A DNA stretch of 38,049 nt, from contig CANHGL010000017.1 in assembly GCA_947460245.1 (NCBI GenBank), forward strand, positions 1 through 38,049, written 5' to 3'. The notes under the pieces were generated by a model, which was not told where the DNA came from, did not search any database, and saw nothing but the letters and a program-made list of their open reading frames with translations. Source of the stretch: Sphingobacteriales bacterium (GTDB taxonomy: Bacteria; Bacteroidota; Bacteroidia; Chitinophagales; JADIYW01). Positions 4,874 through 18,134 of the stretch are shown here, piece by piece (the first letter of the stretch is position 1; the number at the start of each line of letters is the position of its first letter). A program made the translations under genes and the position numbers.

Positions 4874-5344
4874 ATGCGTACTTTTCTAAAACTATTCATC
4901 AGCGTTGTAGTATGTTTAGCGGTAGGCGGTGTATCCGGTTATTTCACTGCTTCTGCAATTCCAACGTGGTATGTAACACTGAATAAACCCTCTTTTAATC
5001 CTCCCAATTATTTATTTGCTCCTGTATGGACAACACTCTATATCATGATGGGTATCGCCTTTGGTTTGGTATGGAAAAGTAATGCCACTCAGTATGTAAA
5101 AAATAAAGCCATGTTGTTTTTTATCATACAACTGGTGCTCAATTTTTTCTGGTCGATTATTTTCTTTGGGTGGCACCAAACTGGCTTAGCGCTCGTAGAG
5201 ATTATCCTGATGTGGATTTTCATCTTATTATCCATTATATCGTTCAAGCCTATTACAAAAGTGGGCGCAGGATTGTTGATTCCTTATCTGGCTTGGGTAA
5301 GCTTTGCTACGCTACTCAACTTCAGCATCTGGAGGTTGAATTAA
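4874..5344 (+). CDS. TspO/MBR family membrane protein
   Basis: The 156-residue protein contains five predicted membrane helices (about residues 5-27, 48-66, 78-98, 104-122 and 130-150) and TspO signature segments: PTWYVTLNKPSFNPPNYLFAP (residues 30-50), the WTTLYIMMG helix and NFFWSIIFF. TspO proteins bind porphyrins and cholesterol-like ligands and influence tetrapyrrole or stress physiology in bacteria. No haem or carotenoid genes are adjacent. Its stop codon overlaps the stop codon of the convergent guanine deaminase gene. Family call is firm; ligand unknown. Confidence 0.9.
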   Translation: MRTFLKLFISVVVCLAVGGVSGYFTASAIPTWYVTLNKPSFNPPNYLFAPVWTTLYIMMGIAFGLVWKSNATQYVKNKAMLFFIIQLVLNFFWSIIFFGWHQTGLALVEIILMWIFILLSIISFKPITKVGAGLLIPYLAWVSFATLLNFSIWRLN

Positions 5345-13736: not shown

Positions 13737-14435
13737 ATGCAGCATTACTTAATTGTTGGAGCTTCCAGCGGTATTGGACAGGAATTAGCCCTACAGCTTG
13801 CGGAGTCTGGAAAGCAGGTAATCGCCACCTATAATAAAAATGAACCCTTAGATAAAAATCCAAACATCCGTTATCATCATTTGAATGTAATGGAAGAGAT
13901 TCCTTCCTTGGATTTCTTACCAGATGAACTAGCGGGATTTGTATACTGTCCGGGTAGTATTCTACTAAGGCCATTCGAAAGAATTAAGGCTACTGATTTT
14001 GCATCTGATTTTAAACTGCAGGTAGGCGGAGCCATCCAGTTGCTTCAATTGGTTTTACCCAGATTGAAGAAATCGGCAAATGCATCAGTCGTATTATTTT
14101 CTACTGTTGCCGTACAAACCGGGCTTGCCTTCCACACGCAGGTTTCCGCTTCTAAAGGCGCCATCGAAGGACTAACGAGAGCATTAGCAGCAGAGTATGC
14201 GCCAACTATAAGGGTAAACTGCATTGCACCCTCTTTAACAGATACCCCTTTGGCAAATTCCTTATTAAATAATGAACAGAAAAGAGAAGCTAATGCTCAG
14301 AGACATCCATTAAAAAGAATTGGTACTACGAAAGATATCGCCAACATGGCATCATTCCTGCTTTCTGAAAACGCCTCCTGGATTACAGGACAAGTACTGC
14401 ACGTAGACGGAGGGATGTCTGCTATAAAGAGTTAA
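13737..14435 (+). CDS. SDR-family oxidoreductase lacking the catalytic tyrosine
   Basis: The 232-residue Rossmann protein has the SDR coenzyme motif GASSGIG (8-14), the DGGMS end motif (224-228) and the PSLTDTPLA segment (165-173). The active site is atypical. In the Y-x-x-x-K motif the lysine (K140) is present in VSASKGA but the tyrosine position is Val136. The usual catalytic serine position falls on S122/T123, and the N-A-G motif is replaced by C-P-G (71-73). It may therefore bind NAD(P) without classical dehydrogenase chemistry, or use another acid. It opens the tightly spaced plus-strand run that continues with TIGR03643-type, photolyase-like and flavin reductase-like genes. Related Tyr-less SDRs appear to exist in the same context, so this is probably a subfamily trait and not a mutation. 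Confidence 0.85.
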   Translation: MQHYLIVGASSGIGQELALQLAESGKQVIATYNKNEPLDKNPNIRYHHLNVMEEIPSLDFLPDELAGFVYCPGSILLRPFERIKATDFASDFKLQVGGAIQLLQLVLPRLKKSANASVVLFSTVAVQTGLAFHTQVSASKGAIEGLTRALAAEYAPTIRVNCIAPSLTDTPLANSLLNNEQKREANAQRHPLKRIGTTKDIANMASFLLSENASWITGQVLHVDGGMSAIKS

Positions 14436-14508
14436 ATAAAAATCACCTATCTGTAAAACAAAACTGCTTAGTTTTTACATACCTGTTCGACAATAATGAT
14501 ACCAAGTG

Positions 14509-14778
14509 ATGGAGCAAAAATATATTGACAGAATAATTGAAATGGCATGGGAAGACAGAACTCCCTTTGAAGCTATTAAAATACAATTTGATTATGCAGA
14601 GGCAGATGTAATCAAACTGATGCGAAGAACACTGAAACGCAGTAGTTTTAATTTATGGAGAAAGAGAGTGAACAGTGGTGTTAGTCAGAAACATCTGAAG
14701 AAAAGAAATTCTGAGATATCACGATTTAAGTGCACGCGACAGAAAACTATCTCGATGAATAAAATAAGTAAGCGATAA
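14509..14778 (+). CDS. TIGR03643-family small protein
   Basis: This protein of 89 residues begins MEQKYIDRIIEMAWEDRTPFEAIKIQF, continues with VIKLMRRTLKRSSFNLWRKRV, and ends in a strongly basic tail. The N-terminal 55 residues are the conserved part of the TIGR03643 family, which looks like a small helix-turn-helix protein but has no known function. A GTG one codon earlier (14506) is possible; I chose the ATG at 14509. Its stop codon abuts the ATG of the FAD-domain photolyase-like gene, so translation is probably coupled. Family members commonly neighbour cryptochrome genes, which suggests a role in DNA or cofactor handling there, but this is inference. Confidence 0.85.
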   Translation: MEQKYIDRIIEMAWEDRTPFEAIKIQFDYAEADVIKLMRRTLKRSSFNLWRKRVNSGVSQKHLKKRNSEISRFKCTRQKTISMNKISKR

Positions 14779-15879
14779 ATGGATCCAGCTTTCCCCACCG
14801 ATTATACATCGATTCTGAAAAGGATAGACGCTGTTGATCCTCTTCAATATGGAAGAACCCGAAATTATAATAATGGCGCAGTAACCTATTTATCGCCCTA
14901 TATCTCAAGAGGTGTTATCAGTACTAAACAAGTATTAGAGATTGTATTAGCAAAAGGCTACGCCATTTCTCATATAGAGAAGTTTGTAAAAGAGCTCTGC
15001 TGGCGGGATTACTTTCAACGGGTTGCACAGCACAAAGATGTTAACCAAGATATAAAGCAACTACAAGCACCTGTTTTAAACAATGAAACGCCCAAAGCTA
15101 TATTGAATGCCTCTACAGGAATACAGGGTATTGATCATGCTATAGAGCTGCTGTATAAAACCGGATACATGCACAATCACTGCAGGATGTATACCGCTTC
15201 CCTGGTGTGCAATATTGCTAAATCGCACTGGCACAACCCCGCCCAATGGATGTATTATCATTTGCTCGACGGTGACTGGGCCAGTAACGCCTGCAGCTGG
15301 CAATGGGTTGCCGGCGCAAACAGTAGTAAAAAATATTATGCCAACCAGGAGAATATAAACAGATATACCTATACAAAACAAGAAAACACATTTCTAGATT
15401 CCTCCTACGAAACCATTGAACAAATGGAGAGACCTGCTGCATTATTATTTACTGAAAAATTTACGCCAGAAAACTATTTGCCAGAAAACTCTACGCTTAA
15501 AATAAATAACTCCATTCCTACTTACATCTATGATTACTATAATCTCGATCCACTATGGCATGAGCAGGAAAACGGGAATCGGATACTATTAATAGAACCT
15601 GATTTTTTTAAGCGCTATCCAGTAAGTAGAAAATGTATAGCCTTTATGCTGAAATTAAGTAAAAATATTCCCGACATTCAAGTATATACTGGTTCATTTA
15701 AGTCTTTCAAAGAAAATTACTCTGTAAAAAGTATTTTTTACAAAGAACATCCTCTCCATGAAGGTTATAGTGGAACTGAAGAAGCCAGAGATTGGATTAT
15801 AGATAACATTACAGAATATTATCCATCCTTTTTTAGTTATTGGAAAAAGATAGAAAAGCAGTTGAGCAAAAAATTATAA
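14779..15879 (+). CDS. Photolyase/cryptochrome-like protein with FAD domain first
   Basis: The 366-residue protein starts directly with the helical FAD-binding region of photolyases: YLSPYISRGVIS (37-48), FVKELCWRDYFQRV (69-82), TGYMHNHCRMYTASL (128-142) and LLDGDWASNACSWQWVAG (162-179). These contain the conserved FAD-contacting residues and electron-transfer tryptophans. The usual N-terminal antenna domain is missing. Instead, residues 245-366 (YDYYNLDPLW, RILLIEPDFFKRYPVS, IQVYTGSF) look like a Rossmann-type antenna-like domain placed at the C-terminus, that is, reversed order. It sits between a TIGR03643-type gene (0-base gap) and a flavin reductase-like gene (4-base gap). It could be a light-driven repair enzyme, a photoreceptor or a flavin-binding partner; activity is not predictable. 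Confidence 0.85.
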   Translation: MDPAFPTDYTSILKRIDAVDPLQYGRTRNYNNGAVTYLSPYISRGVISTKQVLEIVLAKGYAISHIEKFVKELCWRDYFQRVAQHKDVNQDIKQLQAPVLNNETPKAILNASTGIQGIDHAIELLYKTGYMHNHCRMYTASLVCNIAKSHWHNPAQWMYYHLLDGDWASNACSWQWVAGANSSKKYYANQENINRYTYTKQENTFLDSSYETIEQMERPAALLFTEKFTPENYLPENSTLKINNSIPTYIYDYYNLDPLWHEQENGNRILLIEPDFFKRYPVSRKCIAFMLKLSKNIPDIQVYTGSFKSFKENYSVKSIFYKEHPLHEGYSGTEEARDWIIDNITEYYPSFFSYWKKIEKQLSKKL

Positions 15880-15883
15880 ACGT

Positions 15884-16492
15884 ATGATCTTAAACAAAAA
15901 TGATATTGAAGAATTAGAACAGCGCTACCGAACTGCCTTTATAAATTCCTTATCTGGTTTTCGCCAAGCCGTGTTGGTAGGCACAACCTCTCCTCAGCAT
16001 AATAATAACCTGGCCATCTTTAATTCGCTCATTCACTTGGGTGCACATCCTGCCTTGTTTGGGTTGATAAGCAGGCCATCAAACGTACAGCGAGATACCT
16101 TGCAAAACATCCTAGACACTAAGGTATATACCGTAAACTATGTACAAGCTGCAGATTATACAAAGGCACATCAAACTTCTGCACGATACGAAAAAGATAT
16201 TTCTGAATTTGAAAAAGTAGGCTTTAATACATTTTTTTATCCCGAATGCCAGGCCCCATTTGTGGAAGAGGCTATTGTAAAAATAGCGCTACAATTCGAA
16301 GAATGTATTCCTATTCCTTTAAACGGAACGGTGCTTATCATTGGCAGCGTGATGCAGGTGCATATCGCCGATGCTATGGTAGAAGAAGACGGGTTTGTAA
16401 ACTTAGCGGCATCAGAAGTATTGATTAGTCAGGGCCTTGATGCTTACTTTATCGCTAAAGACCTAGGGCGGCTTCCTTATGCAAAACCTTAA
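15884..16492 (+). CDS. Flavin reductase-like (FMN-binding split barrel) protein
   Basis: The 202-residue protein fits the DIM6/NTAB-type flavin reductase-like family. Seen are LVGTTSPQHNNNLAIFNSLIHLGAHPALFGLISRP (32-66), the typical barrel segment around the flavin site, and a C-terminal region with GTVLIIGSVMQVHIADAMV (about 148-166). Such proteins bind FMN or FAD and reduce it with NAD(P)H, or use bound flavin for other redox steps. Encoded four bases after the FAD-domain photolyase-like gene and 23 before DUF2256, it is likely to supply or keep reduced the flavin of the two photolyase homologues. That role is inferred from gene order only. Confidence 0.82.
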   Translation: MILNKNDIEELEQRYRTAFINSLSGFRQAVLVGTTSPQHNNNLAIFNSLIHLGAHPALFGLISRPSNVQRDTLQNILDTKVYTVNYVQAADYTKAHQTSARYEKDISEFEKVGFNTFFYPECQAPFVEEAIVKIALQFEECIPIPLNGTVLIIGSVMQVHIADAMVEEDGFVNLAASEVLISQGLDAYFIAKDLGRLPYAKP

Positions 16493-16658: not shown

Positions 16659-18134
16659 ATGAGCAGAACCGGTATTATTTTTCCCCATCAATTAATAGAG
16701 CAGAATATACTTGCTTCGACATGCGACACGATTTATTTAGTGGAAGAATGGTTGTTCTTCAGACAATATAATTTTCATAAACAGAAAATTGCTTTTCACA
16801 GAGCGAGTATGAAATTTTATGAAAGCTATCTTCTATCAAAAAACATAAGCGTAGTATATGTGGATGCTCAACAGGAACTATCGGATATACGCAAACTGCT
16901 TCCTTATTTAAAAACAAATGGTATTGATCATATAGAATACATAGACACTACAGATTATTTGCTGGAAAGAAGGATAAACCAAGCCTGCAATAAACACCAG
17001 ATTAAATTACATCTGCATCCTACATCGTTATTCATGAATACTGCTGAAGAGATAGCTGCCTACTTCTCAGATAAAAAAAGAATGTTTCAAACTGACTTCT
17101 ATAAACACCAGCGCATACAGAAAAATATACTAGTAGACGAGCATAAGAAACCACTGGGTGGTAAGTGGACCTTCGATGAGGAGAATCGTTTAAAATATCC
17201 GAAAGGAAAAAACCCACCGAAAACTAATTTCATAGCTGGAAATAAATTTAATACAGAAGCCATCACATATACAAAAAAACATTTCTCTGATAACTACGGA
17301 AAGCTAAATCCTGATTTTATTTATCCTACTACTTATACTGAAAGTAAGGCGTGGTTAAATGATTTTTTTCAATCCAGATTTTCTGAATTTGGTGCTTACG
17401 AAGATGCTATCCTATCTTCTGAAAATATACTACACCATAGTGTTTTAACACCTATGATGAATGTGGGCTTGTTAACACCAGACTATATTATAGAGCAAAC
17501 CCTCCTCTATGCAGGACAGCATGAGATTCCATTAAATTCTTTAGAGGGTTTTATCCGACAAATTATAGGATGGAGAGAGTTTATAAGAGCAGTTTACCAA
17601 TTAAAAGGTACGGAAGAACGCACCAAAAACTACTGGGGCTTTACCCGAAAAATACCCCCTGCCTTCTGGACCGGAACTACGGGAATAGCTCCGCTGGATG
17701 ACACTATAAAGAAAGTGTTGGAAACAGGTTATTGTCATCATATTGAACGACTGATGGTGTTGGGTAATTTTATGCTATTATGCGAATTTGATCCAGATGA
17801 AGTTTACCGCTGGTTCATGGAATTATTTATTGATGCCTACGACTGGGTAATGGTGCCTAATGTTTATGGTATGAGCCAGTTTTCAGATGGTGGGCTAATG
17901 GCCACCAAACCCTATATAAGTGGCAGTAATTACTTAATGAAGATGAGTGATTATAAAAAAGGAGATTGGCAAAAAGTGTGGGATGGATTATTCTGGAGAT
18001 TTATGCACGTACACCGCGACTACTTCTTACAGAATCCCAGATTAGGCATGCTGGTAAACAGTTTTGATAAAATGCCGGAGGACAAACGCATGGGTCATCT
18101 GCAAAATGCTGAAGCGTTTCTTAATAAATGGTAG
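16659..18134 (+). CDS. Cryptochrome/photolyase of the PhrB-like group without Fe-S cysteines
   Basis: The 491-residue protein matches the prokaryotic (6-4) photolyase/FeS-BCP group. The N-terminal DPRP domain (IFPHQLIEQN, LVEEWLFFRQYNFHKQKIAFHRASMKFY; 7-55) is followed by the helical FAD domain (FIRQIIGWREFIRAVY 298-313; GYCHHIERLMVLGNF 357-371; WVMVPNVYGMSQFSDGG 396-412). The paired histidines of the active site are H360-H361. The four cysteines that hold the 4Fe-4S cluster in PhrB are absent by my alignment: the position before the HH helix is in IAPLDD (343-348), and the segment with the Cys pair and the fourth Cys is shortened to MSDYKKGDWQKVWDGLFW (429-446). It closes the light/flavin cluster. 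Likely a DNA photolyase or a cryptochrome; substrate unproven. Confidence 0.9.
   Translation: MSRTGIIFPHQLIEQNILASTCDTIYLVEEWLFFRQYNFHKQKIAFHRASMKFYESYLLSKNISVVYVDAQQELSDIRKLLPYLKTNGIDHIEYIDTTDYLLERRINQACNKHQIKLHLHPTSLFMNTAEEIAAYFSDKKRMFQTDFYKHQRIQKNILVDEHKKPLGGKWTFDEENRLKYPKGKNPPKTNFIAGNKFNTEAITYTKKHFSDNYGKLNPDFIYPTTYTESKAWLNDFFQSRFSEFGAYEDAILSSENILHHSVLTPMMNVGLLTPDYIIEQTLLYAGQHEIPLNSLEGFIRQIIGWREFIRAVYQLKGTEERTKNYWGFTRKIPPAFWTGTTGIAPLDDTIKKVLETGYCHHIERLMVLGNFMLLCEFDPDEVYRWFMELFIDAYDWVMVPNVYGMSQFSDGGLMATKPYISGSNYLMKMSDYKKGDWQKVWDGLFWRFMHVHRDYFLQNPRLGMLVNSFDKMPEDKRMGHLQNAEAFLNKW

Follow-up and report, generated by a model that had tools for sequence, protein, structure and literature searches.

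The 38,049-nucleotide window analyzed here (positions 1 to 38,049 of contig CANHGL010000017.1 of a Sphingobacteriales bacterium) contains a photolyase-like open reading frame (ORF) whose domains appear to be in the wrong order. Does this ORF encode a complete protein in which the FAD domain precedes an antenna-type domain, or a photolyase that has lost its N terminus? The original prediction favored the former, a natural domain permutation within the cryptochrome/photolyase superfamily.

The gene and its catalytic domain

The ORF at positions 14779-15879 (forward strand) encodes 366 amino acids from an ATG, followed by a stop codon, and its identity as an FAD-first photolyase gene was established by Pfam searches and by alignments with PDB sequences and with homologues. 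As other photolyases have the antenna first as a rule, we considered that the gene might be truncated or miscalled, its N-terminal antenna being lost or lying upstream. However, the TAA (14776-14778) of a DUF2805/TIGR03643 gene directly abuts the ATG of the photolyase gene (14779), and therefore no N-terminal antenna has been overlooked upstream of the frame. In addition, the same length and domain order are found in 33 homologues from many families, which align end to end with the 366-residue protein at 45-70% identity, and in copies carried by two Persicobacter plasmids. Close homologues with an N-terminal antenna, which according to the original prediction would point to truncation, were found neither among the 33 aligned relatives nor in 395 Bacteroidota genomes searched with a profile of the C-terminal domain. 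Truncation was thus ruled out, the probability left to it being negligible, and judging by its sequence the ORF product is a real, untruncated photolyase-family protein.

The catalytic, FAD-binding domain occupies residues 1 to about 215-217 (14779-15429, forward strand), as delineated by Pfam and by PDB photolyase matches. FAD_binding_7 (PF03441) matches residues 69-188 with 80.2 bits (E = 1.8e-22, cut-off 27) over profile positions 1-127 of 203, which places the protein in the cryptochrome/photolyase superfamily. Residues 23-182 align with positions ~226-398 of PDB photolyases, i.e., beyond the antenna domain of those proteins, so that the FAD domain does come first, as had been predicted. 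The FAD_binding_7 profile has 203 positions; the match stops at 119-128 in all the FAD-first proteins that were scanned but continues to 198-202 in two antenna-first proteins. FAD-first proteins therefore either lack the final third of the FAD domain or have a very different version of it.

We mapped the active-site residues by alignment on the Anacystis nidulans photolyase (1owl). The motif ELCWRDY (residues 72-78; 14992-15012, forward strand) contains E72 and W75, which are invariant in the family alignment and are the counterparts of the cyclobutane pyrimidine dimer (CPD) contacts E283 and W286. HNHCRM (residues 132-137; 15172-15189, forward strand) provides N133 and M137 for N349 and M353, and His134 occupies the position of R350, an Arg in antenna-first CPD photolyases. 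The segment DGDWASNACSWQW (residues 164-176; 15268-15306, forward strand) contains the flavin contacts D164, D166 and N170 (D380, D382 and N386), the proximal Trp W174 (W390) and W176 of the substrate pocket (W392). W151 corresponds to W367 of the Trp chain, and the third, distal Trp of the classic triad, W314, is replaced by V99. The CPD contacts E72, W75, N133, M137 and W176 are invariant or nearly so among family relatives; the Glu, Asn, Met and Trp contacts of CPD photolyases are thus conserved. All FAD-first proteins but one have HNHxRM, versus HNRxRM in antenna-first CPD photolyases. The CxxC...C motif of the four Fe-S cysteines was found in none of 34 Bacteroidota-type sequences.

Ancestry of the C-terminal domain

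The C-terminal part of the protein forms an alpha/beta domain (residues 240-366; 15496-15876, forward strand) that fold searches and profile comparisons identify as a relocated and shortened antenna-type domain of the HUP fold. It includes YDYYNLDPLW at residues ~251-260, RILLIEPDFFKRYPVS at 268-283 and IQVYTGSF at 300-307, and it is well conserved, with a mean column identity of 58% across 14 relatives. Searches with this domain gave no match in Pfam, PF00875 included, and none among PDB sequences.

An AlphaFold2 model of the domain alone, built from five sequences (pLDDT 75, pTM 0.74), shows strands at domain positions 17-20, 36-41, 70-73 and 88-90 with helices between them and a terminal helix. 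The six best Foldseek matches of this model are all photolyase-family proteins, being CRY-DASH chains (2vtb/2j4d) with E values of about 0.01, and the unrelated fold that would have spoken against the original prediction was not seen. With VIA-align, pigeon CRY4 and the Fe-S photolyase PhrB came first, tied with other HUP-superfamily folds at a Z score of about 4. The full-length model, also made from five sequences, has low confidence in the FAD domain (mean pLDDT 53); taken from this model, the C-terminal domain matched the N-terminal domains of the Escherichia coli and Thermus photolyases (1-129 and 2-122) at Z scores of 5.5-5.7, a universal stress protein doing equally well, in a candidate list that may be enriched in photolyases owing to the FAD domain. 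The structural alignments pair the C-terminal domain with photolyases and cryptochromes from their residue 1 or 2 onward, with Z scores of only 4-6, the range of generic HUP-fold matches, in which universal stress protein and nucleotidyltransferase domains tie. Such ties are expected, since photolyase antennas also belong to the HUP-type folds, and structure alone does not decide.

The link came from sequence profiles. Compared with the C-terminal domain of Deinococcus FAD-first proteins, the Bacteroidota C-terminal profile gave an E value of 0.015, and compared with canonical antennas alone 0.02-0.026 (z = 2.8, reached by 4 of 150 shuffles), both little above shuffled controls. The Deinococcus proteins themselves (P0003 and relatives, from plasmids) have a weak C-terminal match to Pfam DNA_photolyase (PF00875; E = 0.001), and their C-terminal domain is linked to 35 canonical antenna domains with a profile E value of 4.8e-9. 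Against a profile that merges the Deinococcus and canonical antennas, the Bacteroidota domain scored 1.8e-5 (z = 10.3), a value reached by 0 of 147 shuffles, with short-chain dehydrogenase (SDR) and flavin-reductase controls near zero; the aligned region starts at the second strand and extends to the end of the domain, into the post-antenna motif. As the merged profile was built after the weak single-profile scores were known, the link is strong but not final. At the level of predicted folds and profiles, residues ~240-366 are shown to be related to the antenna domain, in shortened form, and to have moved from the N to the C terminus.

The FAD-first layout occurs in fused or split form in Deinococcus. 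On a plasmid of Deinococcus sp. QL22 (L049:1336-2627), the FAD domain and the antenna domain are encoded by separate ORFs that overlap by 4 nt, the partner gene being annotated as hypothetical; this pair is a Deinococcus counterpart of the cyanobacterial phr4/phr5.

Several features set the Bacteroidota domain apart from canonical antennas. The chromophore motif of their first strand, RxDLR, is replaced by YNxYNLDP, and the domain, of about 105 residues in Bacteroidota, is shorter by tens of residues; it apparently has no fourth helix and no fifth strand. The family-specific KEHP (residues 322-325; 15742-15753, forward strand) follows the fourth strand, and its K, H and P are invariant in the family alignment. 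SFFSYWKK (residues 350-357; 15826-15849, forward strand) has two counterparts in the alignments, YTVFTPYxKxW, the post-antenna motif of canonical proteins, and FFGFWKRV in the phr5-like QL22 protein; likewise, the family consensus around residues 346-362, GYYPSFFSYWKKIEKQL, pairs with GkPYTVFTPYskkWkekl in canonical proteins and resembles the QL22 sequence. The antenna-type domain announced by the original prediction thus stands as to ancestry, in a reduced version devoid of RxDLR. We use the name antenna for descent, not for function.

Two other readings of this domain have to be weighed. It might be an unrelated small Rossmann/HUP domain, similar to universal stress proteins or nucleotidyltransferases, that was recruited to an antenna-less photolyase. 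The ties with universal stress protein and PPAT/NaMN-adenylyltransferase folds, the lack of a PF00875 match and the weak score against antennas alone are in line with such a recruitment, as is the unmatched C-terminal domain of the NewPHL proteins (see below). We nevertheless find it unlikely in view of the merged-profile score, of an alignment that extends into the post-antenna motif, of the photolyase origin of all six top Foldseek matches, and of the unmistakable antenna at the same place in the Deinococcus FAD-first relatives, that of QL22 ending with FFxFWKxx. Conversely, the domain might still serve as an antenna, with a chromophore of another kind, such as a flavin, lumazine or deazaflavin, the protein then differing from CRY-DASH in topology only. 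Its strong family-specific conservation (Y251, W260, R268, E273, KEHP, YxG and SFFxxWK) exceeds what a mere lid would appear to need, but the absence of RxDLR and a size well below canonical length make a working antenna doubtful. The natural permutation raises the question of whether an antenna domain placed at the opposite terminus can still function.

Relationship to known FAD-first photolyases

We built a tree of 47 FAD cores, from 26 FAD-first proteins (16 from Bacteroidota, 4 from Deinococcus and 6 from alphaproteobacteria) and 21 antenna-first proteins. A branch with 100/100 support separates the two sets in this unrooted tree, for which the program flagged long branches (the NewPHL rows), and the grouping of Bacteroidota with Deinococcus is weak (81/45). 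By both its N-terminal catalytic domain and the separate grouping of its FAD domain, the 366-residue protein belongs to the FAD-first topological class.

In marine Synechococcus/Cyanobium, reverse domain order has been reported for Phr4/Phr5, encoded by two genes, and for the single-gene Phr6, for which Fe-S cysteines are described and a (6-4) role was proposed; Phr7 is described as composed of an N-terminal FAD domain and a C-terminal Z-domain (PMC9426592). PMC13274461 presents NewPHL/SPL proteins as CPD photolyases of inverted topology that act on single-stranded DNA (ssDNA), with NewPHLs reported to be specific for ssDNA in CPD repair; in PMC9649867 and PMC9498864 they are described as devoid of the N-terminal domain and possibly ancestral. 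The NewPHL, SPL and Phr7 proteins go back to Emmerich et al. 2020 and Xu et al. 2021 (cited after PMC9426592, PMC13274461 and PMC9178010). The permutation is therefore real and conserved, as predicted, but not new in kind (PMC9426592, PMC13274461), and the Bacteroidota proteins are a new branch of an already published FAD-first type. Four elements are new here: an antenna-type domain present at the C terminus in reduced form, a clear connection to canonical antennas by way of Deinococcus, an operon in which DUF2805 is coupled to the photolyase, and the mutual exclusion with CRY-DASH (see below). We found no description of the Bacteroidota branch or of its DUF2805 operon in the literature searched, which was largely open access; such sequences may already be among the SPL proteins collected by Xu et al.

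Like the Bacteroidota protein, Phr4/5/6 have the FAD domain first and a photolyase (antenna) domain at the C terminus, which in the Bacteroidota protein is detected at the profile level only, by the merged profile. The four Fe-S cysteines of Phr4/6 are absent from the Bacteroidota branch, which is thus not a Phr4/6; its C-terminal domain is also much shorter than that of Phr4/5/6 and its operon is different, the cyanobacterial proteins being compared by description. The Deinococcus Phr4/6-like proteins (P0003, L047, L048 and L049) keep the CPD contacts: at the Glu position, three of the four have Glu and the other Gln, and W, HNHxRM and WQW are retained, although (6-4) repair was proposed for the Phr4/6 type on account of its Fe-S cysteines.

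With NewPHL/SPL/Phr7, the Bacteroidota protein shares the leading FAD domain, the lack of Fe-S cysteines, a CPD-type active site with HNHxRM and, alphaproteobacterial proteins serving as NewPHL stand-ins, the same side of the 100/100 branch. In contrast, no profile similarity to the Z-domain was detectable: comparison with the C-terminal domain of the six alphaproteobacterial stand-ins gave E = 0.2, within the range of shuffles. Homology of the FAD domain and the CPD contacts are common to the 366-residue protein and class I CPD photolyases, but the latter are antenna first and possess the third Trp of the triad, and the protein scores only 66.7 and 66.1 bits with the class I models NF007955 and TIGR03556 (cut-offs 506 and 885). 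It similarly falls short of the antenna-first CRY-DASH model TIGR02765, at 63.8 bits for a cut-off of 317.05.

The Bacteroidota branch and the Deinococcus bridge suggest that the antenna has moved and shrunk rather than being simply absent. We propose, tentatively, that the "short" photolyases might not be primitive antenna-less ancestors. They could descend from one FAD-first ancestor with a C-terminal antenna, which later degenerated to various degrees, leaving a near-complete domain in Deinococcus and Cyanobium, about 105 residues in Bacteroidota and a barely recognizable one in NewPHL, while the task of CRY-DASH was taken over.

Distribution, neighboring genes and probable role

Of 295 Bacteroidia genomes searched across the class, 36 carry the FAD-first gene, in almost all cases at full length and with the same start, so that the domain order does recur in other Bacteroidota. 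In the 395 Bacteroidota genomes, the C-terminal profile gave 18 strong matches, all of them in 364- to 417-residue frames of the FAD-first family, and no antenna-first protein carrying this domain. Weak matches in three genomes (G567, G272 and G522) were taken as chance; the first two adjoin or lie in unrelated proteins. A viral collection yielded no further relatives, and the FAD-domain matches in phage records were to other photolyases only. One degenerate copy (G185:C160:2262-3227; E = 4.6e-32) has nine in-frame stops and is likely a pseudogene.

The best functional clue is the near exclusion of CRY-DASH, scored as TIGR02765 above its cut-off. Among the 295 Bacteroidia genomes, 88 have CRY-DASH and 36 the FAD-first gene, with a single genome having both versus 10.7 expected (Fisher p = 2e-5); among the 128 with a class I-like photolyase, the numbers are 52 and 24, with none having both versus 9.8 expected (p = 6e-7); and nine families that hold both kinds include 1 double carrier versus 7.0 expected (p = 2e-4). 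These p-values are optimistic, as the genomes are related, but the pattern recurs across families. The family-stratified comparison has a base that admits genomes for carrying either gene, which favors exclusion; exclusion was also tested on an independent base. CRY-DASH is a CPD photolyase of the ssDNA type. The FAD-first gene therefore seems, from this distribution, to stand in for CRY-DASH, and its niche is likely similar to that of CRY-DASH and NewPHL, namely, CPDs in single-stranded or unwound DNA. A widespread gene, labeled by generic models simply as FAD-binding, is thereby given a concrete predicted function that can be put to the test.

The DUF2805/TIGR03643 gene (14506-14778, forward strand; PF10985, E = 5.4e-33) that precedes the photolyase gene is found near the FAD-first gene in 21 of 37 loci, with a junction of -4 to +1 nt in 17 of these 21, which implies coupled translation. 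A search of the open literature revealed no link between DUF2805 and photolyases. A flavin reductase-like gene (15884-16492, forward strand) starts 4 nt downstream of the photolyase gene in the window and is present in 14 of the 37 loci, and an SDR gene (13737-14435, forward strand) lies upstream, SDR genes occurring in 12 loci. A DPRP/prokaryotic (6-4)-type photolyase gene (16659-18134, forward strand) is also present in the window, and genes of this type occur in 18 of the 37 loci; another photolyase is found in about half of the loci.

These neighbors bear on a further explanation, according to which the protein senses light like a cryptochrome, the fold being retained without DNA repair, with the DUF2805 protein as a DNA-binding effector. 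Tight translational coupling to DUF2805, the other adjoining light and redox genes and the presence of two further photolyases in the same genome would suit a sensor. Against it, all CPD contacts and the photolyase-type asparagine at flavin N5 (N170) are conserved, and the near-complete exclusion of CRY-DASH suggests a common repair task, so that we deem a sensor quite unlikely.

Weighing this sequence-derived evidence, we regard the protein as probably a blue-light FAD-first CPD photolyase that stands in for CRY-DASH and whose relocated, reduced antenna domain serves mainly as a scaffold or lid. Near-UV or blue light would excite FADH-, and an electron would pass to the cyclobutane dimer, bound through E72, W75, N133, M137 and W176 and most likely located in single-stranded or unwound DNA. 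Photoreduction would proceed through a W174-W151 relay in which V99 takes the place of the distal Trp. The C-terminal domain is predicted mainly to pack on the FAD site or close it, in place of the final third that canonical FAD domains have, and probably does not bind the usual antenna chromophore; in the 2020 NewPHL paper, the C-terminal domain is reportedly described as sealing the FAD site. Likely partners of the enzyme are the DUF2805 protein, to which it is coupled, and the flavin reductase, which may contribute to flavin supply or reduction and to DNA handling.

Some observations were made on the other genes of these loci. The CxxC of the Fe-S cluster is absent from 17 of 18 DPRP-type neighbors (16659-18134 and 17 relatives); the exception, L107, belongs to G080, the sole genome with both the FAD-first gene and CRY-DASH. 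In 18 loci (L088, L089, L090, L092, L094, L097, L100, L104, L108, L109, L112-L117, L004 and L041), a photolyase-like gene of ~500 codons, located close to the FAD-first gene or immediately downstream of it, has NFRMR at the HNR position of CPD photolyases; its product is thus probably not a CPD photolyase, and it falls near CRY-DASH in the tree. Finally, a TspO/MBR family gene (PF03073) is located at 4874-5341, about 9.4 kb upstream of the photolyase gene, and a TspO gene directly precedes a photolyase gene on a Mesorhizobium plasmid (L057) as well.
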